This document shows, in pieces, positions 17,201 to 42,854 of a stretch of 64,000 nucleotides of DNA. Positions within the stretch are counted from its first letter, which is position 1. Each line of letters begins with the position of its first letter. The position numbers and the translations under genes were made by a program. The DNA lies in NCBI GenBank assembly GCA_030824115.1, contig JAVBYI010000024.1, positions 62,001 to 126,000 of the forward strand, in the 5' to 3' direction. Source of the stretch: Rhodocyclaceae bacterium. Lineage in GTDB: Bacteria; Pseudomonadota; Gammaproteobacteria; Burkholderiales; Rhodocyclaceae. The notes under the pieces are model-generated. The model had not been told where the DNA came from. It made no database searches and was given only the letters and a program-made list of their open reading frames with translations.

Positions 17201-17966
17201 GGATCTGCTGAGTGCACTGCTGAAATGGGTCAAGGTCGATCAGCCCCAGCAAGCCCGCAAAACCACCTTGGCAACGCATTGCACACGCAGCTTCAGCAGC
17301 GCCGACGAAGGCAGCATGCCGTTGACTTTGCCGGGTTTCGATCTGGACAATGCCATGACCCTGATGGGGGGTGACCACGCCCTGTTCAAGCGCGTCGCTT
17401 TGCGTTTTGTCGAACAATTCGAGGGCGCAGCGGGGCGGCTGGCACAACAGATTGAAGCAGGCCAACTGGTCGAGGCGCGGGCAGCGACGCACCAGATCAA
17501 AGGGGCCGCCGGCAACCTGGGGGCAAAGACGCTTTACCGGGCGGCGGATGTTCTTGAAGCAGCACTGGACGAGGCTGTCGCTGGAAAAATCGGCGCTGGC
17601 GAGACGGCAATGGATGCGCTGACGAGCTTCTGTCAGGCGCTCACCGAAGTGGTGGATTCGGTGGCCAGTCTGGCGACCGCCCATTCGGCGAGTGCCGAGG
17701 CTGCCGAATTCGAGTGCGATCAATGTAACTGGCGGCGTGCCAGCGAACTGTTCGCCCAGGTACGCGGTCTGGTGGATCACTATGACTTCGTACCGCACGA
17801 ACTGCTGGTCGATTTGCGCGATTGCCTGCGCTGCCGGCCATTGCGCACGCAAGTCGACATCCTCATGCGCCATGTCGAGCGCACCGAATACGACAAGGCC
17901 AAGCACTTGCTTGATACCCTTTCCTGCCGCGAGGGGCATGATCTCGGGACGAAAGCAAAAACATGA
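14247..17966 (+). CDS. hybrid sensor histidine kinase with two REC and one HPt domain
   Basis: 1239 residues. Order: membrane segment (about 12-35), periplasmic sensor region, second membrane segment (about 250-272), PAS (350-465), HisKA with His491 in [12 protein letters not shown], HATPase (VGNAVKFT, DTGIGM, GGTGLGL), REC1 (Asp782 in TDWKMPEMDG), REC2 (Asp928 in MDLQMPVMDG) and HPt (His1082 in ATHQIKGAAGNLG). This is a BarA/TorS-like phosphorelay in one chain. Upstream is a binding protein and the stop overlaps a REC-GGDEF gene, so the relay probably drives c-di-GMP synthesis. A copy of the dispersed repeat falls in the HPt domain (KIGAGETA). Confidence 0.93.
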   Translation: MQRLNSITRQATLRLLVSLGLLVGLIAVSSLGIYRAALNKAATERSENLATFYTNRIEQIDRDWEIQSRDFKVRIEYTRALEDMQTAVAKLQAFMTIQGTDRRFQYLLIQTKDGQKLFDFGKDISLPAIPNSPDTAYGHYEDTASHALYRVFEHPIWLGEKLGTGRFAMFFRIDNGLLQQIGAPGLTLSVLHGGVPIASSGGAQVLERMRSNSAAEQMGREVCDLIWQDDQLTPMVLRVESPVVPLFSTAELTIGMSVIPILDGLVLWLTLGVWLRRQTRRVAELGSAVREYDRERRETPELGRALTLAKQGPADEIADVADALRVLIKDIAQEAQEREIALLKVKVSEAEYRSILVTTADGFWMVSGDEGHFLDVNPAYCAMSGYTRDELLGMSIADVEAMENREETQQHIAEVVAGKRQRFESRHRRKDGSLFDVEISTQFLDARGGVLIVFIRDITQRKQTEQALLEAKGVAEHANSAKSEFLANMSHEIRTPMNAIIGLSDLSLGLSGVSPKLRDYLTKIHTSSKALLAIINDILDYSKVEAGRLELETAEFRIEELLQNVADLFSLRADQKGLELLMDMSPGVPPVLIGDALRLGQVMNNLVGNAVKFTESGEVHAKVALLDQQGSLVTLQFSVRDTGIGMAPEQLDHLFQPFTQADGSITRRYGGTGLGLVISKRLVERMGGDLVVDSVPGKGSCFGFTLTLPMAHSAHIERSPADLRGMRVLVVDDVDTSRMVLCEMLHSWGFDVTEATDGHHAIELLNQAAVRPERAFEMILTDWKMPEMDGITLARKIGDEVANQVLPKMPVIIMVTAFGKDQLLAAARGVELDGVLTKPVTSSGLFDAIMQIQGGQQYQDAPQKSRDLFEQAAPIRGASVLLVEDNDINQTVAQDLLERMGLQVIVAGDGEQALARLEQEVFDAVLMDLQMPVMDGFEATRLIRAQTRFTKLPVIAMTAAALVRDREACLAVGMNDHVAKPIVPQDLLSALLKWVKVDQPQQARKTTLATHCTRSFSSADEGSMPLTLPGFDLDNAMTLMGGDHALFKRVALRFVEQFEGAAGRLAQQIEAGQLVEARAATHQIKGAAGNLGAKTLYRAADVLEAALDEAVAGKIGAGETAMDALTSFCQALTEVVDSVASLATAHSASAEAAEFECDQCNWRRASELFAQVRGLVDHYDFVPHELLVDLRDCLRCRPLRTQVDILMRHVERTEYDKAKHLLDTLSCREGHDLGTKAKT
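17589..17608 (+). repeat. dispersed repeat, copy 5
   Basis: ATCGGCGCTGGCGAGACGGC after an A-run; one change from the core (first base A). Sense direction in the kinase HPt region, encoding KIGAGETA. Confidence 0.88.
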
Positions 17967-22203: not shown

Positions 22204-23001
22204 GTGATCAGCCTCTGGATGCGCATTGCCACGATGCTCTGCCTCGTTTTCCCAGTGACCCTCACGCTTGCTGCCGGACCGGACAGACTGGGGCGCATTG
22301 ATGCCACGAAGCAGTTGCGGGTGTGCATCTGGCCGGATTACTACGGGATATCCTTCCGCAACCCCAAGACCCAGCAACTGGCCGGCATCGATATTGACAA
22401 TGCGCAGGAGGTGGCCAAGGAGCTTGGCGTCGCGCTGCAGTTCGTCGATAGCTCCTTCGCGAAACTGATCGAGGATGTCACGGCCGACCGCTGCGACCTC
22501 GCCATGTTCGCCATCGGCATTACCCCGCAGCGCCAGGAAAAGCTGCGTTTCACCCTGCCACACTTAGTCAGCGATATCTATGCGATCACCACCAAGTCGA
22601 ACCGGCGTATTCAGAACTGGGCCGATATCGACCAGGCGGGCGCTGTCGTCGTTGTGGCCAAAGGCACCCTTCACGAACCGGTGATGAAGGCCAAGCTCAA
22701 GGCCGCCGAATTGCGCGTGGTCGATACGCCGGCGGCCCGCGAACAGGAAGTCCAGTCGGGGCGTGCCGATGTGTTCATGACCGACTATCCGTTCAGCCGA
22801 CGCATGCTCGATAACAGCGACTGGGCCAGACTGGTATCGCCGCCGGAGACCTATCACCTGACGCCCTATGCCTGGGCGATGCAGCCCGGCGATGATCGTT
22901 TCCATGCCCGGATCGAAAAGATTCTGGCCGAGATGAAACGCGATGGGCGACTCCTGGCCAACGCAAAAAAGAACGGGCTTGAACTGATCGTTGCCAAGTA
23001 A
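22204..23001 (+). CDS. SBP_bac_3-type periplasmic amino-acid-like binding protein
   Basis: 265 residues, family 3 solute-binding protein, with a hydrophobic N-terminal signal ending near LAAG. Landmarks are KQLRVCIWPDYYGISFRNP, QLAGIDIDNAQEVAKELGV, LAMFAIGITPQRQEKLRFT and GRADVFMTDYPFSRRML. The start is a GTG with AGGAG seven bases upstream (the nearby ATG runs into TGA after two codons). There are no transport partners; a hybrid kinase follows within 20 bases. It is probably the extracellular input of that kinase, possibly for an amino acid or a related compound. Confidence 0.87.
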   Translation: MISLWMRIATMLCLVFPVTLTLAAGPDRLGRIDATKQLRVCIWPDYYGISFRNPKTQQLAGIDIDNAQEVAKELGVALQFVDSSFAKLIEDVTADRCDLAMFAIGITPQRQEKLRFTLPHLVSDIYAITTKSNRRIQNWADIDQAGAVVVVAKGTLHEPVMKAKLKAAELRVVDTPAAREQEVQSGRADVFMTDYPFSRRMLDNSDWARLVSPPETYHLTPYAWAMQPGDDRFHARIEKILAEMKRDGRLLANAKKNGLELIVAK

Positions 23002-23017
23002 TCAACCGCTCGCGCGC

Positions 23018-25576
<2,559 letters not shown>

Positions 25577-29512: not shown

Positions 29513-29659
29513 GGAAAGACAGTGCAAGCCGTCGAATTACGATAGTGGCTGAGATTATCGCGAATCTTGGGGCGGAAACGAGCAGCAAGAATATTTTGCA
29601 GTAAGCTCAGGGTTCGTGGCCGGTTTGTCAGGCTGCATCGAATGTTTAGGAGGGATACC

Positions 29660-30493
29660 ATGAAAAAGACCGCACTTATCCTAGGTTCGCTACTTTGCCT
29701 TCCGGGCATCAGCCAAGCGGCCGATCCTATCTGGCTCGTCGAGTTCAAAAAGGCCGACCTGAACGACAGCGGCGGTTTGTCATCGGTGGAACTCGGCAAG
29801 ACCAGATCGTCAAGGTTGCAGCCGATCAAGAGCAATTTTTCGGTGGTCGATGCCGATGCGGATGGTCATGTCACCCGCAACGAGTTCGAAAACTATCTCG
29901 CGACGCAGCAGGTCAAGATGCCCGCCCGGCAGTTCAGCCGTGCAGACCTTAACGACAGCGGTGGGCTTTCGCGCGTCGAGCTCGACAAGACCACCGATAA
30001 GGCATTTGACACGGTAAGGCAGAACTTCGACAGCATCGACACGAACAAGGACGGCCAAGCCAGCTATACCGAATATGAGGCCTTCGTCGGTGTCAGTAGC
30101 AAAGCGGCAGCCATCAGCAGCAAGCTCACCCCACCAAAAGACCAGTGTCAGCCCAACTGCGGCGTGGTGCTGGCGGTCGACCGCTACAAGATCAAGGGTG
30201 ATGGTTCAGCACTCGGGGCGATTGCTGGCGGCGTGGCGGGTGGGCTGCTCGGCAACCAGGTCGGCGGTGGTACGGGCAAGACGATTGCCACAGTAGGTGG
30301 GGCGGCCGGTGGTGCTTATGTCGGCCACCAACTCGAACAGCGCTACAAGACGAAGAAGATGGTCAAGGTCACCGTTAAATTCGACAATGGCGAACAGAAA
30401 GAGTTCGATTTCGAGGCGGACAAGAGCCCGGTAGCCAAGGGCGCGCGCGTGCTGATCGAAGACGGCAAACCGGTCAAATACACAGGTCAGTGA
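29660..30493 (+). CDS. EF-hand protein fused to a glycine-zipper 2TM domain
   Basis: 277 residues with a Sec signal peptide (MKKTALILGSLLCLPGISQA) and AGGAGGGATACC before the ATG. Four EF-hand-like loops follow: KADLNDSGGLSSVE, DADADGHVTRNE, RADLNDSGGLSRVE and DTNKDGQASYTE. The C-terminal half holds a glycine-zipper (GAIAGGVAGGLLGNQVGGGT and ATVGGAAGGAYVGHQLEQ) followed by a basic and acidic beta tail (VKVTVKFDNGEQKEF), as in SlyB/17-kDa antigen proteins. No lipobox cysteine, so it is not a lipoprotein. It may be a calcium-sensing outer-membrane or periplasmic protein. The stop overlaps the GTG of the ATP-grasp gene. Confidence 0.8.
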   Translation: MKKTALILGSLLCLPGISQAADPIWLVEFKKADLNDSGGLSSVELGKTRSSRLQPIKSNFSVVDADADGHVTRNEFENYLATQQVKMPARQFSRADLNDSGGLSRVELDKTTDKAFDTVRQNFDSIDTNKDGQASYTEYEAFVGVSSKAAAISSKLTPPKDQCQPNCGVVLAVDRYKIKGDGSALGAIAGGVAGGLLGNQVGGGTGKTIATVGGAAGGAYVGHQLEQRYKTKKMVKVTVKFDNGEQKEFDFEADKSPVAKGARVLIEDGKPVKYTGQ

Positions 30494-31836
30494 GTCGTTC
30501 TGCTTCACCAGGAGCACCACGCACGCTGGTGCTCTTCAATTACGACTGGGATCGGGTCGGCTTTGCGCGCTGGTCGCATGAATTCCCGCACGATTCGGCC
30601 GGCTTCGACCTGTTCAGCTTTCCCAGTAATGCGCGGCTGGCCGGTTTCGATCTGGAACGCTTTGTTGCGCGTCTTGCCAAACAGGCCGGCAAGCACGGCT
30701 GGCAGGCCGTCACCTCGAACCACGAGCAGTTCGGTGCGCTGGGGGCCGCTTTGCTGGCCGAGCGCATGGGCTGGCCGGGCACGCCGGTGAATGCCGTCCT
30801 CGCCTGCCAGCACAAGCTGTACGCCCGCCAGATGCTGGAAGAAGTCTGCCCGGCATCGAATACCGGGTTTGCGCCGCTGCCGGCACGTTATGGCGATCCG
30901 GCGCCCGAGGGATTAACGTACCCGCTCTTCATCAAGCCGGTCAAGGCAGCGTTTTCCGTGTTGGCGCGCGTCGTCCATGACCGTGACGAACTGCATGAGA
31001 TGACGCGCTTCGGCGCCTTTGAGCTGTGGGTGATCCGCCATCTGGTCGAGCCTTTCGAGCGTGTCGTGAAGAAGCGTCTGCCGCTGGCCGGCACGGCCCA
31101 TCGCCTGCTGATCGAACAACCGGTGCAGGCCGCGCAGTACAACCTCGACGGCTATGTCTTCAATGGTGCGCTGCGTCCCCTGGGTGTTGTCGCCTCGATC
31201 ATGTATCCCGGCACGCAGGCGTTCATGCGCTTCGACTATCCGTCGTCGATCCCCGCAGCGGGGCAGGCCAGGGCCATCGACACGGCGCGGCGCTTTCTGC
31301 AGGCGGTGGGTTTCACCCATGGCCTGTTCAACATGGAGTTCTTTTACGACGAAGCCACGGACAAGCTCACCGTCATCGAGTTCAACCCGCGCATGGCGTC
31401 GCAGTTTTCCGACCTGTATTTGCGCGTCGATGGCATCGACCTGCATCGCGTCGCCATTGAACTGGCCTTCGGGCGTGATCCGGCCTTGCTACCCAAGGTG
31501 CAGCCCAGCGCCGGCATGGCGGCCAGTCTCGTCTATCGCGCATTCTCGCCTGATGCAGTGCCAGCCATGCCGAGCCGCGCGCGCCAGGCGGCGTTCCATG
31601 CGGCCTTTCCCGATGCGCTGCTGTTCCGTTTTCCCAAACCGCGCGGCTCGATGACGCGCGATTTCAAATGGCTGGGGAGTTATCGATACGGCATCGTCCA
31701 TCTCGGCGGACGCGACATGGCCGACCTGCGCGAACGCTGCCGCGACGCGAGCGATCTGTTAGGCTGGCCGGCACCGTGCCAACACGGTCAGCCCGATGTC
31801 CATGACCTCGCCACCCTGATTTCGGAAACCGCATGA
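30490..31836 (+). CDS. ATP-grasp ligase-like protein coupled to egtD
   Basis: 448 residues. The central fold is ATP-grasp: YPLFIKPVKAAFSVLARVV is the lysine-bearing ATP strand, HRLLIEQPVQAAQYNLDGYV the second lobe, and NMEFFYDEATDKLTVIEFNP with RMASQFSDLY the Mg-binding and catalytic loop (E and N of IEFNPR). Such enzymes join a carboxylate to an amine or thiol. It overlaps the upstream stop (GTGA) and its own stop overlaps egtD (ATGA), so it is co-translated with the hercynine-forming enzyme. It does not resemble the EgtA/GshA glutamate-cysteine ligase family. Substrate unknown; a role in hercynine or ergothioneine/selenoneine metabolism is an inference from position. Confidence 0.75.
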   Translation: MSRSASPGAPRTLVLFNYDWDRVGFARWSHEFPHDSAGFDLFSFPSNARLAGFDLERFVARLAKQAGKHGWQAVTSNHEQFGALGAALLAERMGWPGTPVNAVLACQHKLYARQMLEEVCPASNTGFAPLPARYGDPAPEGLTYPLFIKPVKAAFSVLARVVHDRDELHEMTRFGAFELWVIRHLVEPFERVVKKRLPLAGTAHRLLIEQPVQAAQYNLDGYVFNGALRPLGVVASIMYPGTQAFMRFDYPSSIPAAGQARAIDTARRFLQAVGFTHGLFNMEFFYDEATDKLTVIEFNPRMASQFSDLYLRVDGIDLHRVAIELAFGRDPALLPKVQPSAGMAASLVYRAFSPDAVPAMPSRARQAAFHAAFPDALLFRFPKPRGSMTRDFKWLGSYRYGIVHLGGRDMADLRERCRDASDLLGWPAPCQHGQPDVHDLATLISETA

Positions 31837-32780
31837 CGCCGCAACTGATCCAGATCCACCACGCCGATCCGGCGGCCATCCGTGCCGAACTGATTGCCGG
31901 CCTGAGCGCGCCCGTCGCGACGATTTCGCCAAAATATCTCTACGATGCGCTCGGCGCCCGTCTGTTCGCCGCCATCACCGAATTGCCCGAGTACTACCCG
32001 ACGCGCACCGAGGCCGCCATCTTCGCGGCCCATGCGGAGGAGATGGCGCGTCGGCTGCCAGCCTTCGATACCTTCGTCGATCTTGGCGCAGGCAACTGCG
32101 AGAAAGCCGCGCGGCTGTTCGCACCATTCCAAGTCAAGCGCTATGTCGCCGTCGATATCTCGGTCGATTACCTGCGTGATTCGCTCGACATCCTGCGCCG
32201 CCAGCATCCGCATCTGGCCCTGATGGGCATCGGCCTCGATTTCTCGGCCGCGCTGCAACTGCCCGCAGAAGTCGGATCGGGGCCGCGACTGATGTTCTAT
32301 CCCGGTTCCAGCATCGGCAACTTCACGCCGGACGAGGCATTGGCTTTCCTGCGTCAGGTGCATGCGGCGGCACAGGGCGGGGGCTTGCTGATCGGCGTCG
32401 ATCTGGTCAAACCGGTTGCGGTACTGGAAGCCGCCTACGACGATCCGCTGCAGGTCACCGCTGCCTTCAACCGCAACATGTTGCGCCATGTATGCCGTCT
32501 CGCCAGCGCCGACTTTTCACTGGCCGACTGGCGGCACGTGGCTTTCTTCAATAGCGTGGCATCCCGGATTGAAATGCACCTCGAAGCCGTGCGCGATGTC
32601 ACCGTGCGCTGGCCGGAAGGGGAACGGCACTTTGCTGCTGGTGCGCGTATTCACACCGAGAATTCATACAAATGGCGCATTGAGGATTTTGCCGCACTGC
32701 TCGAGACGGCCGGATTCCGCGCCATCCGCCATTGGGCCGATGCACAGGACTGGTTTGCGGTGTTCTCTGCCCAATCTTGA
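31833..32780 (+). CDS. egtD: L-histidine N-alpha-methyltransferase
   Basis: 315 residues, normal length. EgtD trimethylates histidine with SAM to give hercynine, the precursor of ergothioneine and selenoneine. Signatures: SPKYLYDALGARLFAAIT, LPEYYPTRTEAAI, FVDLGAGNCEKAARLF (SAM loop), RYVAVDISVDYL, FYPGSSIGNFTP, GVDLVKP and IHTENSYKW (substrate pocket). It is coupled to the ATP-grasp gene. The partner EgtB-like enzyme is 7 kb away on the other strand with a selenosugar synthase. A perfect copy of the dispersed repeat encodes RLASADF, where relatives have a similar small-residue stretch. Confidence 0.93.
   Translation: MTPQLIQIHHADPAAIRAELIAGLSAPVATISPKYLYDALGARLFAAITELPEYYPTRTEAAIFAAHAEEMARRLPAFDTFVDLGAGNCEKAARLFAPFQVKRYVAVDISVDYLRDSLDILRRQHPHLALMGIGLDFSAALQLPAEVGSGPRLMFYPGSSIGNFTPDEALAFLRQVHAAAQGGGLLIGVDLVKPVAVLEAAYDDPLQVTAAFNRNMLRHVCRLASADFSLADWRHVAFFNSVASRIEMHLEAVRDVTVRWPEGERHFAAGARIHTENSYKWRIEDFAALLETAGFRAIRHWADAQDWFAVFSAQS
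32494..32513 (-). repeat. dispersed repeat, copy 8 (perfect)
   Basis: Perfect core GTCGGCGCTGGCGAGACGGC on the minus strand, after AAAA. Antisense in egtD, encoding RLASADF. Confidence 0.93.
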
Positions 32781-32825
32781 TGCGTTCGCTTGTCGAAAGC
32801 CAAACGACAAGCTAGTATTAGCCGC

Positions 32826-33179
32826 ATGAGTCGCCTGCGCACCTTCCTGTTGATTGTTCTGGCACTGCTGCTACCCCTGCAGACCGCCAGTTCATGGGCC
32901 ATGCCCATGTGCAGCCATGCAGCGTCTGCACAGGCAGTGGTGCAGGCCGACATGCCCTGCCATGAGCATGCGGAAGTGGTTACCGCCGCTCCCTCACAAG
33001 CGGATCACGAATGCGATAACTGCGGCATCTGTCACCTCGCCAGCAGCGGTTTCCTGCTGGCGATGGACAGTACCGACCTGCAATTGCCCGCCCTGAATGT
33101 CCTGGTGCCGGTGCAGCATCCAGCTACGCCGAGCTATATCGGTGAACCACCGCAACAACCGCCCAGACGCACGAACTGA
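32826..33179 (+). CDS. small exported Cys/His-rich protein (DUF2946-like)
   Basis: 117 residues from the ATG at 32826 (a TTG at 32790 is less likely). The N-terminus is a signal or anchor (FLLIVLALLLPLQTASSWA). The mature part contains MCSH, MPCHEH and HECDNCGICHLASSG, metal-ligand-like pairs, and ends with a Pro-rich tail. Similar small DUF2946-type proteins commonly accompany copper or other heavy-metal efflux genes, as here ahead of cusF. I take it as a periplasmic metal-handling accessory; the function is inferred from context. Confidence 0.65.
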   Translation: MSRLRTFLLIVLALLLPLQTASSWAMPMCSHAASAQAVVQADMPCHEHAEVVTAAPSQADHECDNCGICHLASSGFLLAMDSTDLQLPALNVLVPVQHPATPSYIGEPPQQPPRRTN

Positions 33180-33201
33180 AAACCCGGCAGGATGGTGATT
33201 T

Positions 33202-33221
33202 GCCGTCCCGCCAGCGCCGAC
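33202..33221 (-). repeat. dispersed repeat, copy 9
   Basis: Minus-strand core GTCGGCGCTGGCGGGACGGC. Intergenic, between the small Cys/His-rich gene and the cusF-like gene; an unusual T-rich stretch follows it on the plus strand. Confidence 0.9.
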
Positions 33222-33266
33222 TATTGTTTTTTTGTTTTCGGTTTTTCGTTTTCAGGAGGTTTCCCC

Positions 33267-33557
33267 ATGAAATTCGTATTGCGTGCACTTGCCATCGCAA
33301 GTCTGGTTCTGCCCTTTTCCCTGTTCGCTGCCGATGAGCTGTCCGAAGGCTCGGTCAAGAAGATCGATGCACCGAATCAGCGCGTCATGCTGGCTCACGG
33401 CCCGATTGCCAATATTGGCATGATGCCGATGACCATGATGTTCAAGGTCAAGGACCCGGCCATGCTCAAACCACTCAAGGATGGCCAGAAGGTGCGCTTC
33501 CGCGTCGAGGACGTGGGCGGCGAGTACACCATCGTCCGCATCGAAGCGGCGAAATAG
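33267..33557 (+). CDS. CusF-like periplasmic copper/silver chaperone
   Basis: 96 residues with a signal peptide (LRALAIASLVLPFSLFAA) and CAGGAGG before the ATG. It has the small beta-barrel CusF fold: GSVKKIDAPNQRVMLAHGPI then GMMPMTMMFKVKDPAML. His and the two Met of the Cu(I)/Ag(I) site align, but the Trp that caps the metal in E. coli CusF (NWPEMTM) is replaced, the segment reading GMMPMTM. It stands first in the efflux operon and should deliver metal to the CusCBA complex. The site change may alter affinity. Confidence 0.85.
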   Translation: MKFVLRALAIASLVLPFSLFAADELSEGSVKKIDAPNQRVMLAHGPIANIGMMPMTMMFKVKDPAMLKPLKDGQKVRFRVEDVGGEYTIVRIEAAK

Positions 33558-33559
33558 CC

Positions 33560-34840
33560 ATGTCTCCCTTGCCCTTGCTGCTGGCGACGGCCTTGACCGT
33601 CGCCAGCGGGCTGTCGTCCGTGGCCAGCGCTGCCGAAGAAACGCTGATCGGCGGCAATGTCGATAGTCTGCTCGAGTTCGCGCGCAGCCACCACCCGGAG
33701 TTTGCCGCCCTGCGCCTTGAAGCCGAGGCCGCGGCCGAGCGCGTGGCGCCGGCCGGCGCCTTGCCCGACCCGATGTTCCGCACGGAATTGCGTGACGTGA
33801 CCAATGAAGCCAGTGGCGGCAGTGCCAATCTGCTGCCAGCCCGGATCGGCAGCACCAAATACACGCTGACGCAAACCCTGCCGTGGTTTGGCAAGCGCGA
33901 CCTGCGCCGTGACGTCGCCGCCGCCGGTGCCGACGAGGCAAGCGGCCGCACGCGTGAGGGCTGGCTGGAACTGGCCACGCGTATCAAGCAAACGTATGCA
34001 CAACATCATGTGCATTTGCATACGTTGCGGCTGATGGGTGAGAACCTCGACTTGCTGCAGCGGCTGGGCGAGATTGCCCGTACCCGCTACGCGAACGGAC
34101 TGGCGCCGCAGCAGGACGCCATCCGCGCCCAAGGGGAATACACCATGTTGCAAAGCGATCTGGCGATGTTCGAAGGCGAGAGCGCCCAGGCCAGTGCGCG
34201 CATGCGCAGCCTGCTGGGCCGTCCGCCGGCCCACATCAAGCTGCGGCCGCCCGACATCCTGCGGCCGTTACCGCCGGCAGCAACGCTTGATTTCGTCGCG
34301 CTGGAAGCGCGCTTGCGGGCAAACAACCCGCAACTGGCGCAGGATGCGGCGCGGATTGCGGCGGCCGACAAGGGCCGCGAGCTGACTTACCGCAACCGTT
34401 ATCCCGATGTCACGCTCGGCGTTTCGCCGATCCAGACGCGCTCACGCGTCAGCGAATGGGAACTGATGGTCGAGGTCAACATTCCCTTGCAGCAGGGGAG
34501 TCGCCGTGCCCAGGAACGTGAGTCCGAGCGCCTGTTCGAAGCGGCGGCGCGGCGTCATGAGTCGACGCTCAATCAGGCCTTGGCAGATCTGGGTGAAGCC
34601 CTGGCCGGGCTGGAAGCCTCCCGCCGCGTTGAATCCCTGATTGCCACCAGCCTGTTGCCGCAGGCCGAGTTGACCCTGCAATCCGCACTGGCCGGCTATG
34701 AAACCGGCAAGGTGGATTTCGCAGCGGTGCTCGATGCGCAGCGGCAGATCCGTCGCGCCCAGCAGGATCTCGTCAAGGCCCGTGGCGACCAACGCCTGCG
34801 TCTGGCAGAGATCGAACGCCTGATCGGAGAAGAACTATGA
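33560..34840 (+). CDS. cusC: TolC-family outer-membrane channel of the Cus system
   Basis: 426 residues: an outer-membrane efflux protein with signal peptide ending near VASA and two long coiled-coil repeats, each starting with an F/L-rich turn (SLLEFARSHHPEFAALR; VALEARLRANNPQL). It forms the exit duct for the RND pump encoded downstream. It is shorter than TolC and lacks a lipobox cysteine. Two bases separate it from cusF, and its stop overlaps the adaptor gene (ATGA). The conserved YETGKVDFAAVLDAQR near the C-terminus is typical of heavy-metal members. Confidence 0.88.
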   Translation: MSPLPLLLATALTVASGLSSVASAAEETLIGGNVDSLLEFARSHHPEFAALRLEAEAAAERVAPAGALPDPMFRTELRDVTNEASGGSANLLPARIGSTKYTLTQTLPWFGKRDLRRDVAAAGADEASGRTREGWLELATRIKQTYAQHHVHLHTLRLMGENLDLLQRLGEIARTRYANGLAPQQDAIRAQGEYTMLQSDLAMFEGESAQASARMRSLLGRPPAHIKLRPPDILRPLPPAATLDFVALEARLRANNPQLAQDAARIAAADKGRELTYRNRYPDVTLGVSPIQTRSRVSEWELMVEVNIPLQQGSRRAQERESERLFEAAARRHESTLNQALADLGEALAGLEASRRVESLIATSLLPQAELTLQSALAGYETGKVDFAAVLDAQRQIRRAQQDLVKARGDQRLRLAEIERLIGEEL

Positions 34841-36312
34841 AAAACCTGACCATCATCGTCCTGCTGGCACTGGCTGGCCTGCTGGGCTACTGGTTCGGCG
34901 GGCAGCATGAAAATGTCGGCGCTGGCGAGACGGCGTCCGTAGCCGCGCCAGCTGGAAAAAAGCTCCTCTACTACCGCAACCCGATGGGCCTGCCCGACAC
35001 CTCGCCGGTGCCGAAGAAGGATTCGATGGGCATGGACTACCTCCCCGTTTATGAAGGCGAGGATGAAGGGGATGACAGCAGTGTCAAGATCAGTACGGCC
35101 AAGGTGCAGAAGCTCGGTGTGCGCACCGAGACGGTGAGCCGGCGCGATCTGTCGCGTCCGATTCGTGCGGTCGGCCGTGTCGAGGTCGACGAGCGGCGCA
35201 TCTTCACCGTGGCGCCCAAGTTCGAGGGCTGGATCGAGCGCCTGCATGTCAATACCACCGGCCAGCCGGTTGGCAAGGGGCAGCCCCTGTTCGAGGTCTA
35301 CAGCCCGGAACTGGTCTCCGCCCAGCGTGAATATCAGGTGGCCGCACGCGGCGTCGCGGCACTGTCCAATGCCGGGCCGGAAGCGCAGGCGAGCATCCGT
35401 CAGGTGGCCGAGGCCAGTCTGGCACGATTGGCCAACTGGGATATTTCGACCGAGCAGATTGCCGCGCTCAAGGCCGGCAATGAACCGCGCCGCAACCTCT
35501 CCTTCCGCTCACCGGTCGGCGGCGTGGTGCTCGATAAGAAAGCGGTGCAAGGCATGCGTTTCATGCCGGGCGAGGCGTTGTTCCAGATTGCCGACCTTGC
35601 GTCGGTCTGGGTGCTGGCCGAGGTGTTCGAGCGTGATCTGGCTGCCGTCAAGTTGGGACAAGCGGTCGAGGTGAGCCTCGATGCCTATCCGGGCAAGACC
35701 TTCATCGGCAAGGTGAGTTATCTCTATCCGACGCTGAATGCGCAGACGCGCACGGTGCCGGTGCGCATCGAACTACCCAATCCAGAAGGACTGTTGCGGC
35801 CAGCAATGTATGCGAACGCCGAAATAAAAGTCGGCGCTGGCGGGACGGCATTAGTTGTGCCCATCTCGGCGGTCATCGACAGCGGCACGTCCCAGCGCAT
35901 CATCGTGCAAAAGGACGAAGGGCGCTTTGAGCCGCGCGAAGTAAAACTCGGCCTGCGCAGCGACGATTACGTCGAAGTGAAGGAGGGCGTTGCCGAGGGA
36001 GAGCAGGTGGTCGTATCGGCCAACTTCCTGATCGACTCGGAGAGCAATCTCAAAGCCGCTTTGGGTGGCATGAAAGAGAAGCCATCGGTCAGCCATCATG
36101 CGATGGGAACCCTGGACAGCATCGAAAGCGACGGCTCGGTGATGATTACGCATGAACCGGTCGCCAGCCTCAACTGGCCCAAGATGACCATGGCCTTTGT
36201 GCCGGCCAATGCCGCGCTGGTCGCCGGTCTCAAGCCGGGCACGGCCATGCACTTCGAGTTCGTCGAGCGCAAGCCGGGCGAATGGGTCATCACCAAGATC
36301 GAGAAACACTGA
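34837..36312 (+). CDS. cusB: CusB-type adaptor with C-terminal CusF domain
   Basis: 491 residues. Order: N-terminal membrane anchor (about 4-20), heavy-metal-binding motif LYYRNPMGLPDTSPVPKKDS with MGMDYLPVY, barrel-sandwich and hairpin regions (APKFEGWIERLHV, FRSPVGGVVLDKKAVQGM), beta-barrel, and a fused CusF-like domain at about 415-491 with HEPVASLNWPKMTMAF, including the His, Trp and Met ligands. It links pump and channel and hands over Cu(I)/Ag(I). Two dispersed repeats fall in it: NVGAGETA right after the anchor and KVGAGGTA before the last barrel strand. The stop is one base before cusA. Confidence 0.92.
   Translation: MKNLTIIVLLALAGLLGYWFGGQHENVGAGETASVAAPAGKKLLYYRNPMGLPDTSPVPKKDSMGMDYLPVYEGEDEGDDSSVKISTAKVQKLGVRTETVSRRDLSRPIRAVGRVEVDERRIFTVAPKFEGWIERLHVNTTGQPVGKGQPLFEVYSPELVSAQREYQVAARGVAALSNAGPEAQASIRQVAEASLARLANWDISTEQIAALKAGNEPRRNLSFRSPVGGVVLDKKAVQGMRFMPGEALFQIADLASVWVLAEVFERDLAAVKLGQAVEVSLDAYPGKTFIGKVSYLYPTLNAQTRTVPVRIELPNPEGLLRPAMYANAEIKVGAGGTALVVPISAVIDSGTSQRIIVQKDEGRFEPREVKLGLRSDDYVEVKEGVAEGEQVVVSANFLIDSESNLKAALGGMKEKPSVSHHAMGTLDSIESDGSVMITHEPVASLNWPKMTMAFVPANAALVAGLKPGTAMHFEFVERKPGEWVITKIEKH
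34915..34934 (+). repeat. dispersed repeat, copy 10 (perfect)
   Basis: Perfect core after AAAT, sense direction near the start of cusB, encoding NVGAGETA in the linker after the membrane anchor. Confidence 0.93.
35830..35849 (+). repeat. dispersed repeat, copy 11
   Basis: GTCGGCGCTGGCGGGACGGC after AAAA, sense direction in cusB, encoding KVGAGGTA. Confidence 0.93.
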
Positions 36313-36313
36313 C

Positions 36314-39300
36314 ATGCTGGCTAAACTCATCGACTGGTCGGCGCGCAACAAGTTTCTCGTCCTGCTCGCTACGCTTTTCGTCGTCATGGCGGGCATTGTC
36401 GCGGTGCTCAAAACCCCGCTCGACGCCCTGCCGGATCTTTCCGACGTGCAGGTGATCGTCTACACGGAGTTTTCGGGCCAGGCACCACAGGTAGTCGAAG
36501 ATCAGGTGACCTATCCGCTGACCACATCGCTGCTGGCAGTGCCAAAATCAAAGGTGGTGCGCGGGTTTTCCTTCTTCGGCGCCTCCTTCGTTTATGTGAT
36601 TTTCGAGGACGGCACCGACATCTACTGGGCACGGTCGCGCGTGCTGGAATATCTCAACACGGTGGCCGGCCGTCTGCCGCAAGGCGTGGCGCCGAGCCTC
36701 GGGCCGGACGCCAGCGGGGTTGGCTGGGTTTATCAGTATGCCGTGCTGGGGGCGAATCGCACGCTGGCCGAACTGCGAACCTTGCAGGACTGGTATCTGC
36801 GCTACCAGATCACCAAGGCACAGGGCGTGGCCGAAGTCGCCAGCATCGGCGGCTTTGTGCAGCAGTATCAGGTGGTGGTCGATCCGGCCAAGCTGCGCGG
36901 TTACGGCATTCCGCTGATGACGGTGGCCAATGCGATCCGCAACTCGAATCGCGATGTCGGCGGCCGCGTCGTCGAGATGGCCGAGACCGAGTACATGGTG
37001 CGCGGCAAGGGCTATCTGCGCGGCAAGGCCGATCTTGAGCAACTCGTCGTCAAGGCCGACAAGGGCACGCCGGTGCTGCTGCGCGACATTGCCCGCGTCG
37101 AACTCGGCCCGGATGAACGTCGTGGCATCGCGGAACTGAACGGCGAGGGCGAGGTCGTGTCGGGCATCGCCGTGGCACGTCATGGCCAGAATGCGCTGGA
37201 GGTGATCGGCAACATCAAGGCGAAGATCGCCGACGTCACCGCCGGCCTGCCGGAAGGCGTAAGCATCGAGACGGTCTATGACCGCTCCGAACTGATCGAG
37301 CGCGCGATTGCCACCTTGAAAACCACGCTGGCCGAGGAGGCGCTGATTGTCGCGCTGGTCTGCATCGTTTTCCTGCTGCATGTGAGGAGTTCGCTGGTGG
37401 CGATCCTGATGCTGCCGGTTGGCGTGCTGATCGCCTTCATCGCCATGCGCCTCTTGGGCATGAACTCCAACATCATGAGCCTCGGCGGCATTGCCATCGC
37501 GATTGGCGCGATGGTCGATGCGGCGATTGTCATGATCGAGAACGCCCACAAGCATCTGGAACGCCTTAAGGACGGAGAGTCGCGCGTCGAAGCCATTATC
37601 GCCGCCTGCAAGGAGGTGGGGCCGGCGCTGTTCTTCTCGCTGCTGATCATCACCGTTTCCTTCCTGCCGGTGTTCACGCTCGAAGCGCAGGAGGGCCGGT
37701 TGTTCGCGCCGCTGGCCTGGACGAAAACCTTTGCCATGGCCGGTGCGGCGCTGCTGTCGGTGACCTTGGTGCCCGTCCTCATGCTGTTGTTCGTCCGTGG
37801 CCGCATCCTGCCTGAGGCTCAAAATCCAGTTAATCGTTTCCTGATTGCGATCTACCGTCCGATCATCCTGGCGGTGATGAAGTGGAAAGCGGCGACGATT
37901 GCCCTCGCGCTGGCGGCCATGGTGGTTTCGATCTGGCCGGCCATGAAGCTCGGCAGCGAGTTCATGCCGACGCTCAACGAAGGCACGCTGTTCTACATGC
38001 CGACGGGGCTGCCGGCGATGTCGGTGACCAAAGCGGCGGAGCTGCTGCAGACGCAGAACAAGATCATCAAGAGCTTCCCCGAAGTGGCCTCGGTGATCGG
38101 CAAGGCGGGCAGGGCGCAAACGGCCACCGACCCGGCGCCGATCGAGATGTTCGAGACGGTGATCAACCTGAAGCCTGAGAAGGACTGGCGCCCCGGCCTG
38201 ACCATTGACAGCCTGACCGCCGAGATGGACAAGGCCTTGCAGTTTCCGGGTATCGCCAACTCGTGGACGATGCCGATCAAGGCGCGCATCGACATGCTCT
38301 CCACCGGTATTCGCACGCCGGTTGGCATCAAGGTCTTCGGCAAGGATCTCGATGAAATGGAGAAACTGGCGCGCGAAATCGAGGCGGTGGTGAAGCAGGT
38401 ACCCGGCACCAGTTCGGCCTACGCCGAGCGCATCACCGGTGGCTGGTATCTCGATATCGAGCCGGATCGCGCGCAACTGGCGCGCTACGGCATCCTCATC
38501 AACGACCTGCAAGAGGTGGTGGCGACGGCGCTCGGCGGCGAAATGTTGACGACGGCGGTCGAAGGCCGCGAGCGCTTTGGCGTCACACTGCGCTATCCGA
38601 GGGAACTGCGCGACGATCCCCAGAAAATTGCCGCCAACGTGCTGGTGCCCGCCATGTCAGAGATGGGCGGGCCGGCGATCATGGTGCCGCTCGGTCAGGT
38701 GGCGCAGGTGAAGATCGCCAAGGGCGCGCCGGCCATCCGCACCGAGAATGCGTTGCTCTCCGCCTACATCTATGTCGACATTCGGGATAGAGACATTGGC
38801 TCGTATGTGGCCGAAGCCAAGCGTGCGGTGGCGGCGCAGGTGACGTTCCCGCAAGGCAGCTACGTGACCTGGAGCGGCCAATTCGAGTACATGGAACGCG
38901 CCATCGAGCGGCTCAAGATCGTCGTGCCGTTCACGCTGCTGATCATCTTCCTGCTGCTCTATCTCAACTTCCGCGCGCTGACACAGACACTGATTGTGAT
39001 GCTCTCGGTGCCCTTCGCGCTGGTCGGCGGCATCTGGCTGATGTGGCTGCTGAATTACAACCTGAGTGTTGCGGTGGCCGTGGGTTTCATCGCGCTGGCC
39101 GGCGTCGCCGCCGAAACCGGCGTGGTGATGCTGATCTATCTCGATCATGCCTGGGCCGCAGTCAGGCAAAAGTCGGCGCTGGCAGGACGGCCTCCGACGG
39201 CCACCGATCTCTACGCGGCGGTGATGGAAGGCGCGGTGGAACGGGTGCGGCCGAAGATGATGACAGTGGTGGCGATCATGGCCGGCCTGCTACCGATCAT

Positions 39301-39445
39301 GTGGAGCACGGGAGCCGGTTCGGAGGTGATGCGCCGCATTGCCGCACCGATGGTAGGCGGGATGATTTCATCGACAATCCTGACGCTGTTGGTCATCCCG
39401 GCGATCTATGCGCTGATCGAGGAACGCCGTCTCGCCCGTACTTAA
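36314..39445 (+). CDS. cusA: CusA-type heavy-metal RND efflux pump
   Basis: 1043 residues, close to E. coli CusA. The N-terminus LIDWSARNKFLVLLATLFVV is the first of about 12 membrane segments. ALPDLSDVQVIVYTEF, GRAQTATDPAPIEMFET and RIDMLSTGI are heavy-metal RND signatures; Met612 and Met661 correspond to methionines of the copper site. It uses the proton gradient to push Cu(I)/Ag(I) out through CusBC. The start is the ATG at 36314; a longer frame into cusB has no start signal. A repeat copy near residue 955 encodes KSALAGRP in a cytoplasmic loop. Its stop overlaps that of senA on the opposite strand by four bases. Confidence 0.95.
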   Translation: MLAKLIDWSARNKFLVLLATLFVVMAGIVAVLKTPLDALPDLSDVQVIVYTEFSGQAPQVVEDQVTYPLTTSLLAVPKSKVVRGFSFFGASFVYVIFEDGTDIYWARSRVLEYLNTVAGRLPQGVAPSLGPDASGVGWVYQYAVLGANRTLAELRTLQDWYLRYQITKAQGVAEVASIGGFVQQYQVVVDPAKLRGYGIPLMTVANAIRNSNRDVGGRVVEMAETEYMVRGKGYLRGKADLEQLVVKADKGTPVLLRDIARVELGPDERRGIAELNGEGEVVSGIAVARHGQNALEVIGNIKAKIADVTAGLPEGVSIETVYDRSELIERAIATLKTTLAEEALIVALVCIVFLLHVRSSLVAILMLPVGVLIAFIAMRLLGMNSNIMSLGGIAIAIGAMVDAAIVMIENAHKHLERLKDGESRVEAIIAACKEVGPALFFSLLIITVSFLPVFTLEAQEGRLFAPLAWTKTFAMAGAALLSVTLVPVLMLLFVRGRILPEAQNPVNRFLIAIYRPIILAVMKWKAATIALALAAMVVSIWPAMKLGSEFMPTLNEGTLFYMPTGLPAMSVTKAAELLQTQNKIIKSFPEVASVIGKAGRAQTATDPAPIEMFETVINLKPEKDWRPGLTIDSLTAEMDKALQFPGIANSWTMPIKARIDMLSTGIRTPVGIKVFGKDLDEMEKLAREIEAVVKQVPGTSSAYAERITGGWYLDIEPDRAQLARYGILINDLQEVVATALGGEMLTTAVEGRERFGVTLRYPRELRDDPQKIAANVLVPAMSEMGGPAIMVPLGQVAQVKIAKGAPAIRTENALLSAYIYVDIRDRDIGSYVAEAKRAVAAQVTFPQGSYVTWSGQFEYMERAIERLKIVVPFTLLIIFLLLYLNFRALTQTLIVMLSVPFALVGGIWLMWLLNYNLSVAVAVGFIALAGVAAETGVVMLIYLDHAWAAVRQKSALAGRPPTATDLYAAVMEGAVERVRPKMMTVVAIMAGLLPIMWSTGAGSEVMRRIAAPMVGGMISSTILTLLVIPAIYALIEERRLART
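39172..39191 (+). repeat. dispersed repeat, copy 12
   Basis: GTCGGCGCTGGCAGGACGGC after AAAA, sense direction in cusA, encoding KSALAGR. Confidence 0.92.
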
Positions 39446-40599
39446 AGCGCGCAACTCCTGAACCCGCTGTGGATGTCGTTGCGTTCGACAGTGAAGTAGT
39501 TGCGGTATTTCGGGTGCGCCATGCGCGGGTCGGTGGCGCGGCTGGCGCCTTTGAGCACGTAGCGGTGTTCCTCGAAACCGAAGCGTGAGTAGTCGCGGTA
39601 GGGGTGGGCGACAAAGCCGGCGAAGGGCGCAAAGCGGCTGCTGGTCCATTCCCATACATCGCCCCATTGGAAAGTCGGCGCTGACAGTGCTGCATATTCC
39701 CATTCCGCCTCGATTGGCAGGCGGCGTCCGGCCCAGGCGCACCAGGCCTGCGCTTCGTCCCAGGTGAGATGGACGGCGGCGGCGGCGAGATTGAGCGGCT
39801 CCCAGGTGCCGAAGCGCAGCGCCTGCCATGCCCCATTCTCCTTGCGCAGATAGCGCGGCATGCCTACGGCGCCAGCCTCGATGGCGGGCACGAAGCTGCC
39901 CCAACTGACGGGTACGCTGTCGATGTGGAAATTGTCCAGTTTCACCTCATGGGCTACGAGTTCATTGTCGAAGGCGAAGTCGCGGCCCTCGTGGCCCAAG
40001 CGCCATGTCGTGGCCGGCAGAGCGAGATCGACGGAGGCGGGCAGAGGGCGTTCCCACGGCCGCAGGTGAGCGGGCAGGGGGATGTCGAGCGCCTGCGCCA
40101 TGTAGGTGGCGGCCTCGGCGTGCATATCTTCGTGGAACAGGGCGAGCCGGTAGAAATAGAGATGGTCAAAATCCTCCGGTTCGCTGGCGAGCAGGGCCAG
40201 CGTTTCGGCCAGACTTTCAGCGAGGTAAGCGCGTGTGCCGGCCAGATCGGGCAGCGGCAAATTCCAGCGCGTGGTGTGCTTGACGAGACTGGAGTTGTAC
40301 CAACTGTCGGCGCTGGCGAGACGGCCTGCCGGGCGTTCGCAAGCCGGATCGGCCGCCAGTCCGAGATGGCGCTGCGGGTTGCGCGCGATCCACACATCGT
40401 AGAACCAGGCGACATGGCCCACTTCCCACAGCGTCGGGTTGAACTGGGGCGAGTAGGGCAGGCGCAAGGCTGGGCCGAGTTGGGCTACATAGGCATCGAG
40501 CAGATCGAGCGTGCGGCGGCGGGCATCCTGCAAGGCCGTGGCGAGGAAACCGGCATTGCCCCCACGGGCGAGACGGGCGGTGGAATAATCAGTAACCAT
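39442..40599 (-). CDS. senA: EgtB/SenA family C-Se or C-S bond-forming enzyme
   Basis: 385 residues from the ATG at 40599. An N-terminal DinB-like helical domain carries the iron ligands (His62 in GHVAWF; His156 and His160 in FHEDMHAE), and a C-terminal FGE-sulfatase-like domain (VPVSWGSF, GRRLPIEAEWEYAA, GDVWEWTSS, SRATDPRM) completes the fold. EgtB joins hercynine to a thiol; SenA joins it to a selenosugar, making selenoneine. The choice of SenA rests on the adjacent senB-family gene and not on active-site residues I can discriminate. Its start codon overlaps that of senB head to head. Two dispersed repeats lie in it (LASADSWYNSS and LSAPTFQWG). Confidence 0.75.
   Translation of the reverse strand: MVTDYSTARLARGGNAGFLATALQDARRRTLDLLDAYVAQLGPALRLPYSPQFNPTLWEVGHVAWFYDVWIARNPQRHLGLAADPACERPAGRLASADSWYNSSLVKHTTRWNLPLPDLAGTRAYLAESLAETLALLASEPEDFDHLYFYRLALFHEDMHAEAATYMAQALDIPLPAHLRPWERPLPASVDLALPATTWRLGHEGRDFAFDNELVAHEVKLDNFHIDSVPVSWGSFVPAIEAGAVGMPRYLRKENGAWQALRFGTWEPLNLAAAAVHLTWDEAQAWCAWAGRRLPIEAEWEYAALSAPTFQWGDVWEWTSSRFAPFAGFVAHPYRDYSRFGFEEHRYVLKGASRATDPRMAHPKYRNYFTVERNDIHSGFRSCAL
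39674..39693 (+). repeat. dispersed repeat, copy 13 (right half decayed)
   Basis: GTCGGCGCTGACAGTGCTGC after GAAA. The left block has one change; the right block is degenerate. Antisense in senA, encoding SAPTF. Confidence 0.7.
40306..40325 (+). repeat. dispersed repeat, copy 14 (perfect)
   Basis: Perfect core; the A-run is reduced to AACT. Antisense in senA, encoding RLASADS. Confidence 0.93.
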
Positions 40600-41605
40600 G
40601 AGAAAGCTCTCGGAAAAGATCGTTATCGTCACGCCGGCGCTCGCCGATGCCAATAATGGCAACTGGCAGACCGCCTGGCGCTGGCAGCGTTTTCTGGCGC
40701 CACTTTACCCGACGCGGCTGGTCAAGACCTGGCCGGATGCCGAGGCTGACAGCGATACGCTGATGATCGCCCTGCATGCCCGTCGCTCGGCCGAATCGAT
40801 TGCGGCCTGGCATGCGCGCCACGGTAGTGAACGACTGGCACTGGTGTTGACCGGCACCGACCTGTATCGCGATATCCAAACGGATGCGGCCGCGCAGCGT
40901 TCGCTGGCACTGGCCGGCCAGTTGGTGGTCCTTCAGGGGCTGGGCGCGCGCATGCTGCCGGCCGCATACCACGCCAAAACCCGAACGATTTACCAGTCCG
41001 CCACGGCAAGAAAGGCACTGACCAAGTCGCCGCAACGCCTGCGCGCCCTGATGGTCGGCCATCTGCGCGAGGAAAAGTCGCCCGAAACGCTGTTTGCGGC
41101 GGCCCGTCTATTGGCCGGGCGCAAGGACATTTTCATTGACCATATCGGTGCGCCCCTCGACCCGGCATTGGCGCAGGCAGCGCAGGCGACGATGGCCGCC
41201 TGCCCCAACTACCGCTGGCTCGGCGGCCGGCCGCATGAGGAGACACGCCGCCGCATTCAGCGCGCGCATCTGCTAATCCACCCCAGTCGCATGGAGGGGG
41301 GCGCCCATGTGATTATTGAAGCGGCGCTTAGTGGTACACCGGTACTGGCCTCGCGCATTGACGGCAATGTCGGCATGCTCGGAGACGATTACGCTGGCTA
41401 TTTCGACTGGAACGATGCGACGGGGCTGGCGGCCTTGCTGGGCCAGTGTCGCGACCCGCAAAGTGGCTTGCTTACTCGACTTGCCCGCCAGACGGCCGCA
41501 CGTGCGACGCTGTTTGCCCCGGCTACCGAGTCTGCCGCAGTTCGTCAGTTGGCTTTATCACTTTCTGCTAGTATGGTTTTACGTCCATACCGGCCGGAAC
41601 GCTGA
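40598..41605 (+). CDS. senB: SenB-family selenosugar synthase (glycosyltransferase fold)
   Basis: 335 residues, GT-B glycosyltransferase-like, of the family described as TIGR04348 and later as SenB. Signatures: IVIVTPALADANNGNWQTA at the N-terminus, IALHARRSAESIAAW, LALVLTGTDLYRDI, ALMVGHLREEKSPETLF and IHPSRMEGGAHVIIEAALSG (nucleotide-sugar site with the final Glu). SenB makes a selenosugar from selenophosphate and a UDP-sugar, used by SenA. No selD/senC lies in the window; selenophosphate would have to come from elsewhere. The ATG shares bases with the oppositely oriented senA ATG (CATG). Confidence 0.8.
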   Translation: MRKLSEKIVIVTPALADANNGNWQTAWRWQRFLAPLYPTRLVKTWPDAEADSDTLMIALHARRSAESIAAWHARHGSERLALVLTGTDLYRDIQTDAAAQRSLALAGQLVVLQGLGARMLPAAYHAKTRTIYQSATARKALTKSPQRLRALMVGHLREEKSPETLFAAARLLAGRKDIFIDHIGAPLDPALAQAAQATMAACPNYRWLGGRPHEETRRRIQRAHLLIHPSRMEGGAHVIIEAALSGTPVLASRIDGNVGMLGDDYAGYFDWNDATGLAALLGQCRDPQSGLLTRLARQTAARATLFAPATESAAVRQLALSLSASMVLRPYRPER

Positions 41606-41612
41606 AAACGTG

Positions 41613-42854
41613 ATGATTCGTCTGATATCGCTCTTGCTGTTATTGCTGCTGGGTTCAGCGGCAGTGCAGGCACGCGATGTGCGTGTCGGTATCTATGCCA
41701 ATGCGCCCAAGATTTTCCTTGATGCTGACGGCAAACCTGCCGGTATCCTGGTTGAACTGCTCGGCCGCATTGCGGCCCAGGAAGGCTGGCAGCTCACCTA
41801 TCTGCCGTGCCAATGGAAGGACTGCCTGAGTAATTTGAAAACTGGCGTGATCGACCTGATGCCTGACGTGGCGTATTCGGCATCACGCGAAAAGCTGGTG
41901 GACTTTCACCGCACGCCAGCGCTTTACAGTTGGTCCCAGTTGTTCAGTCGCCAAGGCGAAGTGATCATTTCGCCCTTGCAAATGGACGGCAAGCGCGTCG
42001 CCTTGCTGACACAAAGCGTTCAGGCAGAGGAATTTGTACGCTGGGCGACCAGTTATGGTGTGAAAGTGACCATCGTTCCCGCCGATAGTTTCGAGCACGC
42101 CTTTCAGTTAGTGGCCAAGGGGCAGGCCGATCTGGCGGCGACCAACAACCGTTATGGCGAATTTCACGCGGCAGCCCATCAACTGGTAGGCACGTCGGTG
42201 ATTTTTCAGCCAGCGCAATTGTTCTACGTCACCGCCAAGGGCCGTAATGGCGAACTGCTGACAGCCATTGAGAACCATCTGACAAACTGGCTGAAGGACC
42301 CTGATTCTGCGTATTACGAGGTTCTCAAGAACTGGCGTGCTGCCAGCCCGGAAGCCATCATCCCGACCCGTTTCTGGCAGGGTGTCTGGTTGTTGTCAGG
42401 GCTGCTGGTGCTGGTCGCACTACTGGCGTATGGGCTGCGCGGCCAAGTCAGGAAAAAGGGCATCGAACTGCAGTCAAGCGAGCAGATGTTGCGTACGATT
42501 CTGGATAGTCTCGATGCCTGTATCTACCTTAAAGACACCCAAGGCCGCTACCTGTTTGCCAATCAGGCCGTGCTCGACCTGTGGCAGACCAGGCTGGAGG
42601 ACGTGATCGGTAGCACCGACGAAAAGTTTTTCGATGCGGCCACCGCGACGAATATTCGCCAGAATGACCTGAAAGCTATGTCTGAGGGCCACAAGGTGTC
42701 GCTCGACGAAGCCAACAAGGTTTCGGCCACTGGAAAAGTCGTTGTCTATCAAAGCACCAAGCTGCCGCTGTATAACGTGGATGGCAGCCTGTATGGTCTC
42801 TGTGGCATTTCGGTGGAAAAGCCAGCCGTCGATAAAAGCCATCATGCGGTCTGA
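41613..42854 (+). CDS. binding-protein/PAS membrane sensor without output domain
   Basis: 413 residues. Signal peptide (LISLLLLLLLGSAAVQA), a family 3 solute-binding domain (about 20-245: VRVGIYANAPKIFLDADGKP, LKTGVIDLMPDVAYSASREKL), one membrane segment (about 255-275), then a PAS domain (about 285-400: ILDSLDACIYLKDTQGRYLF, ending in LCGISVE) and a stop. Proteins built this way normally continue into a histidine kinase or GGDEF domain, which is absent; no kinase-like frame follows before the next gene on the opposite strand. It begins eight bases after senB. It may signal by protein contact or be a truncated receptor. Confidence 0.8.
   Translation: MIRLISLLLLLLLGSAAVQARDVRVGIYANAPKIFLDADGKPAGILVELLGRIAAQEGWQLTYLPCQWKDCLSNLKTGVIDLMPDVAYSASREKLVDFHRTPALYSWSQLFSRQGEVIISPLQMDGKRVALLTQSVQAEEFVRWATSYGVKVTIVPADSFEHAFQLVAKGQADLAATNNRYGEFHAAAHQLVGTSVIFQPAQLFYVTAKGRNGELLTAIENHLTNWLKDPDSAYYEVLKNWRAASPEAIIPTRFWQGVWLLSGLLVLVALLAYGLRGQVRKKGIELQSSEQMLRTILDSLDACIYLKDTQGRYLFANQAVLDLWQTRLEDVIGSTDEKFFDAATATNIRQNDLKAMSEGHKVSLDEANKVSATGKVVVYQSTKLPLYNVDGSLYGLCGISVEKPAVDKSHHAV

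Follow-up and report, generated by a model that had tools for sequence, protein, structure and literature searches.

Does a locus whose genes resemble those for selenoneine or ergothioneine synthesis, and which is split by a copper efflux operon, make one of these compounds, and do the genes set between and beside the biosynthetic genes belong to the pathway? The question is raised by a 64,000-nucleotide stretch (the window) of contig JAVBYI010000024.1 from a Rhodocyclaceae bacterium. The genome concerned (G000) comprises 2.999 Mb on 24 contigs and is 92% complete, and the window corresponds to C2:62001-126000. Judged from its sequences, the locus is very probably a split selenoneine biosynthesis locus, and an ATP-grasp gene directly 5′ of egtD was recognized as a conserved partner of egtD, senA, and senB.

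The biosynthetic genes named in a preliminary description of the window were recovered at their positions by matches well beyond chance level, with the cus operon between egtD and senA. The egtD gene (31833-32780, plus strand) encodes an L-histidine N-alpha-methyltransferase (hercynine synthesis), and its product scored 366.6 bits with TIGR03438, above the curated NCBIfam equivalog cut-off of 290.9; it was the sole copy found in a search of the genome. The senA gene for selenoneine synthase, a non-haem iron enzyme, lies on the minus strand (39442-40599; the plus reading contains stops) and scored 445.6 bits with NF041186 (curated cut-off 420), while the senB gene for selenosugar synthase (40598-41605, plus strand) scored 428.2 bits with TIGR04348 (curated cut-off 300). 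The nearest solved chains to the SenA protein were those of selenoneine synthase (8ryz/8k5i; 351 bits, E ~ 1e-103), with OvsA (150 bits, E ~ 1e-42) and EgtB (92 bits, E ~ 5e-25) following, and those nearest to SenB were the SenB structures 8k5u/8jjq/8fbx. The three histidines of Variovorax paradoxus SenA (VpSenA), which by analogy with EgtB would be the iron ligands, were kept in the aligned window protein. Alignment with VpSenB showed identity at N20, T23, K158, and E231, with the EGGAHV motif and the catalytic lysine retained. PMC10891094 ties N20, T23, K158, and E231/EGGAHV to catalysis and donor choice.

The relationship between the SenA protein and the EgtB enzymes was further studied in a tree of 60 rows, from which five rows were left out as copies of the same genomes. 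The window protein fell with the 8ryz SenA inside a branch of 34 rows (support 100/92), while the EgtB-like proteins formed a separate branch of 12 rows. Four members of the latter branch (G007, G009, G057, and L108) were scanned; with the EgtB model they reached 521-578 bits, and with the SenA model 329-392; the two from the same genus as the window genome scored 578 (G007) and 571 bits (G009) with the EgtB model, and both come from genomes with neither SenB nor the ATP-grasp gene. The tree, which had been proposed as the means of classifying this enzyme, thus placed it on the SenA side, apart from the EgtB-like branch. Note, however, that the 4x8b EgtB reference stood outside the EgtB-like branch, in the SenA/OvsA half, on a very long branch whose placement was flagged as unsure. 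In the same tree, a second SenA-like protein encoded in genome G039 (L047:9491-10759; L046/L047), present in addition to its sen locus, grouped with OvsA.

A source of selenophosphate was found outside the window. Selenophosphate is made by SelD or SenC, as stated in PMC10891094, and the preliminary description had reported selD as absent. This holds for the window, in which no selD match was found and no senC/selD gene adjoins the locus, but not for the genome: the search that the description had proposed located selD on the same contig (C2:20133-21179; L060:5133-6179), ~ 41 kb before the window start and ~ 80 kb from senA. The gene scored 422 bits with TIGR00476 (cut-off 125) and contains one in-frame TGA, at the catalytic motif SHGGG-U-GCKI. 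Beside it, and divergent from it, lies mnmH, encoding tRNA 2-selenouridine synthase (499.5 bits, cut-off 266), and the same contig carries selB (C2:741-2621) and a selenocysteine tRNA (~ C2:604-699, detected with ARAGORN and as Rfam RF01852). The 61 nucleotides of selD starting at the TGA folded no better than shuffled sequences when examined for a bacterial selenocysteine insertion sequence (z 0.46), so the reading of the TGA as selenocysteine rests on its place in the catalytic motif, the tRNA, and SelB. As selB, the selenocysteine tRNA, and mnmH also occur in the genome, the single selD may feed three uses of selenium.

With selD counted, the route from histidine to selenoneine is complete in genes (EgtD, SelD, SenB, and SenA). 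EgtD would convert histidine to hercynine by trimethylation, the distant SelD of the same contig would supply selenophosphate, and SenB would couple the selenium to a uridine diphosphate (UDP) sugar. SenA would then join the selenosugar to hercynine using iron and oxygen, giving a product expected to break down to selenoneine. What was established here is that the proteins belong to their families and keep their catalytic residues, that selenophosphate has a source, and that the genes are linked and co-occur; the chemistry of the pathway is assigned by analogy with the Variovorax enzymes, as described in PMC9814287, PMC10702425, and PMC10903977. The sen cluster of V. paradoxus is SenA-SenB-SenC according to PMC9814287, PMC10891094, PMC10702425, and PMC10903977. 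Like it, the window locus has members of the SenA and SenB families with the catalytic residues conserved, and its core can be assigned to the published sen pathway, with no senC alongside. It differs in that a selenocysteine-type selD at a distance on the contig serves instead, that egtD and the ATP-grasp gene lie on the far side of the copper operon, and that its SenA is shorter by a segment of 19 residues.

The ATP-grasp gene (30490-31836, plus strand, GTG start) had not been listed as a member of the locus. Its stop overlaps the egtD start in an ATGA sequence, an arrangement also seen in the genomes G011 and G004 of the same genus and not in G016. Its distribution was examined in 61 genomes (that of the window and 60 relatives), which were not selected on gene neighborhood, with ATP-grasp and SenB matches taken at E <= 1e-20. 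SenB was found in 23 of these genomes (22 over the cut-off), EgtD in 29, and the ATP-grasp gene in 12, all of which also carry SenB and EgtD. None of the eight genomes with EgtD and no SenB has the ATP-grasp gene, and two of these (G007 and G009) are those of the same genus that carry EgtB. Eight of the 12 are close copies, each at most 10 kb from senB on a shared contig. In genome G036, the copy is broken (L045:11979-12686) and stands beside egtD-senA-senB, which has the appearance of a loss in progress and is consistent with an accessory role. In-frame TGA codons in the G038 and G052 matches proved to be ordinary C-terminal stops, and the idea that the ATP-grasp protein is a selenoprotein was rejected.

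A second set comprised 80 ATP-grasp loci, the best 80 of 222, taken as stretches of up to 10 kb on each side; five of them (L069, L070, L075, L079, and L122) appear to come from genomes already in the survey, and the set leans toward sen-linked loci because the alignment used (A1) was seeded with sen-linked ATP-grasp genes. EgtD, SenA, or SenB was encoded in 50 of the 80 loci (30 of the 45 not cut by contig ends), across many genera and in varying gene order. All three were present in 25 loci, and SenB in 36. Among the other 44 genomes, 37 were tested and SenB was found elsewhere in 29 (28 over the cut-off). One cluster of open reading frames (ORFs), which includes members of the YHS (seleno)protein family (three members were scanned), was present in 34 of the 80 loci, usually just downstream of the ATP-grasp gene; no match to this protein was found in the 92%-complete genome of the window. 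In Limnobacter alexandrii (L113:9147-16499), a row was observed of an ORF that we take to be DUF547-like, the ATP-grasp gene, a YHS (seleno)protein gene, a putative selenate ATP-binding cassette (ABC) transporter gene (TIGR04553), and egtD, which together make up a larger selenium gene neighborhood.

The ATP-grasp protein scored 29.6 bits with PF13535 (cut-off 27) and reached no curated NCBIfam equivalog cut-off. An AlphaFold2 model was considered alongside the family matches (35 sequences; predicted local distance difference test, pLDDT, 88.9). The model was closest to the L-amino-acid ligase 3vot of Bacillus licheniformis, presumably BL00235 (VIA Z 31.3, root-mean-square deviation 3.5 over 361 aligned residues), so that the ATP-grasp fold spans most of the chain; other ATP-grasp enzymes, among them BacD (27.1) and PurK-type enzymes, came next at Z 27-28. 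Residues K149, E209, E283, E297, and N299, which we assume to be the ATP and magnesium ligands, were invariant across the 35 sequences. The likeness to the L-amino-acid (dipeptide) ligases 3vot and BacD/YwfE (3vmm, 3wnz) is one of predicted fold, at a sequence identity of only ~ 15%. Such ligases use ATP to activate a carboxylate and couple it with an amine. In both selenoneine and hercynine the carboxylate is free and the amine blocked (trimethylated in selenoneine). An obvious guess, though a speculative one, would be an amide formed at that carboxylate; alternatively, the enzyme could supply the pathway or have another selenium-related role. It is probably an additional, accessory component of the pathway, namely an ATP-dependent ligase for selenoneine, hercynine, or a precursor.

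The interval between egtD and senA is filled by the cus genes (33192-39445), preceded by an ORF for a small CzcI/CopL-like metal-associated protein (32790-33179, plus strand), whose matches fall below cut-off and whose true start probably lies later than the TTG at 32790. The cus genes, all on the plus strand, encode the periplasmic Cu/Ag-binding protein CusF (33192-33557), a CusC-type outer-membrane efflux protein (OEP; 33560-34840), the adaptor CusB (34837-36312), and the heavy-metal resistance-nodulation-division (RND) permease CusA (ORF span 36197-39445, family match from ~ 36314), which scored 1227 bits with TIGR00914 (cut-off 701.45). These family matches are those of CusFCBA copper/silver efflux systems, from which the operon differs in that CusB carries a fused C-terminal CusF domain, in addition to the separate cusF gene, and in that cusRS was not found among the neighboring window genes scanned. 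Beyond the operon, senA and senB are divergent and their ATG codons overlap in the CATG at 40597-40600, leaving zero intergenic room for promoters or ribosome sites. The senA and senB alignments overlap in G011 too, and lie ~ 16 bases apart in G004 and G016.

The ORFs flanking the locus were also inspected. That at 29567-30493 encodes an EF-hand and glycine-zipper protein (probable start ATG 29660), and its stop overlaps the ATP-grasp GTG; it was seen in one of the 80 ATP-grasp loci (L069, the G011 contig). Downstream of senB, the ORF at 41316-42854 encodes a protein with solute-binding (SBP_bac_3) and PAS domains and no kinase domain, and G011 has a neighbor of senB that is 80% identical. Three large hybrid sensor kinases and a PocR-domain protein are encoded elsewhere in the window (14247-17966, 22991-25576, and 55581-62383).

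The reading of the locus as one for selenoneine has to be weighed against other explanations. One is that it makes ergothioneine, the SenA-like enzyme being an EgtB that uses cysteine or gamma-glutamylcysteine and SenB an unrelated glycosyltransferase. EgtB and SenA share sequence, and the EgtB model TIGR03440 does match the window protein, at 173 bits; this is, however, far under its cut-off of 360, while the SenA and SenB cut-offs were both passed. Two points weigh against the selenoneine assignment. The SenA protein stands only 26 bits above the SenA cut-off, a narrow margin given the SenA-model scores of the true EgtBs, and the EgtB model separates the two groups better. It also lacks the 19-residue segment of VpSenA (46 vs 65 residues between fixed points), which is missing as well from the copies of close relatives, Limnobacter, Polaromonas, and G057. 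As a mark of ATP-grasp loci this deletion was rejected, since several such loci retain the segment. The EgtBs of G007 and G009 lie elsewhere in the tree, in genomes devoid of SenB and the ATP-grasp gene, and the catalytic residues of the window SenB are intact. On the scores and the tree, the ergothioneine reading was rejected as very improbable, and synthesis of that compound at the locus is unlikely. Of the pair of products first offered, selenoneine was thus borne out by the SenA cut-off, the placement with 8ryz, and the presence of a selenophosphate source, and ergothioneine was not, the enzyme having stayed below the EgtB cut-off. Neither of the two findings that the description had named as grounds for giving up its reading was obtained. 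It had also been suggested that the grouping with copper/silver export is functional, in which case selenoneine and metal efflux would form one stress response, perhaps on one transcript from the ATP-grasp gene to cusA. The ATP-grasp gene, egtD, the czcI-like gene, and cusFCBA (30490-39445) are indeed co-directional with short gaps, and no terminator-like site was found on the plus strand between them, in promoter and terminator scans that overall returned fewer sites than shuffled sequences; a shared transcript is possible in the window genome. Across the 61 genomes, with neighborhoods judged by eye from coordinates and pumps counted as TIGR00914 matches at E <= 1e-200 only (contig ends may hide some), a heavy-metal RND pump lay within 10 kb of sen genes in two of the 23 SenB-bearing genomes, the window genome and G011, against 0.29 expected (Poisson P 0.034, calculated post hoc and on two sister genomes). 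In G011, the egtD-senA interval holds a heavy-metal (CusR-like) response regulator, a CusS-type sensor-kinase ORF, and a different heavy-metal RND pump. Against this, the two genomes come from sister species of a single genus and their pumps share only 30% identity, and the CusS-type ORF of G011 lies on the strand opposite to egtD. The other same-genus sen genomes, G004 and G016, have neither pump at the site and a Na/Ca exchanger between egtD and senA. A CusA-like gene occurs in two of the 80 ATP-grasp loci, one being G011 again and the other (L103) from a genome with no SenB match. The suggested functional grouping is therefore not conserved and was judged improbable. We conclude that metal genes entered the site in one lineage, with no conserved link between copper and sen genes, and cusFCBA most likely reached its place between egtD and senA by an insertion specific to this lineage.

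A closer contest concerns the ATP-grasp gene, which could be unrelated to selenoneine, having another selenium-linked or general function and being linked to the sen genes by descent. Several observations favor this and count against a role in the pathway. The gene is missing from 11 of the 23 SenB-bearing genomes and so cannot be essential for selenoneine; four distant homologs (G038, G041, G052, and G057; 40-41% identity) do not lie beside sen genes; and the co-occurrence statistics (Fisher P 8e-7 vs SenB, and 0.006 within EgtD-positive genomes) ignore kinship. Eight of the 37 ATP-grasp genomes tested have no SenB match, and seven of these eight have SelD. The frequent YHS (seleno)protein-family cluster likewise fits a separate selenium-linked function. 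Furthermore, eight of the 36 SenB loci show no SenA-like gene within the stretch. One is L140, which is cut off inside SenB; the others are seven Limnobacter-like loci (L102, L109, L111-L113, L115, and L116) that keep the ATP-grasp gene, EgtD, SenB, and SelD. These seven have an ORF between egtD and senB that is methyltransferase-like (one was scanned; e.g., L113:15528-19500), and L. humi (L119) has both this ORF and SenA; L. litoralis (L122) likewise combines the ATP-grasp gene with egtD, senA, and senB. If the seven genomes have no SenA elsewhere, the ATP-grasp protein, EgtD, and SenB would there have a purpose different from selenoneine synthesis. On the other side, 50 of 80 loci, spread over many genera and differing in gene order, link the gene to egtD, senA, or senB; it overlaps egtD in three genomes (that of the window, G011, and G004); and the eight surveyed genomes with EgtD and no SenB all lack it. 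An unrelated function is accordingly a real possibility, though not the favored one. That the ATP-grasp protein belongs to the selenoneine pathway, modifying or supplying it, appears somewhat the better account of these data. The more specific proposal that it is a dedicated fourth sen enzyme of beta-proteobacteria that would couple the selenoneine carboxylate to an amine (e.g., an amino acid) to give a new selenium metabolite, a selenoneine amide or peptide, is doubtful.

The literature naming selenoneine yielded no mention of an ATP-grasp partner, with most subscription papers outside the search, and the original sen paper (Kayrouz et al. 2022) may note it. In a 2026 review (PMC13188914), selenoneine and ovoselenol are given as the two recently characterized bacterial selenometabolites. 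The copper link need not be considered further unless expression data point back to it. In the organism itself, selenium probably goes into proteins, tRNA, and selenoneine, and the conserved, co-occurring ligase-like enzyme beside the selenoneine genes offers a testable lead to a third bacterial selenometabolite.

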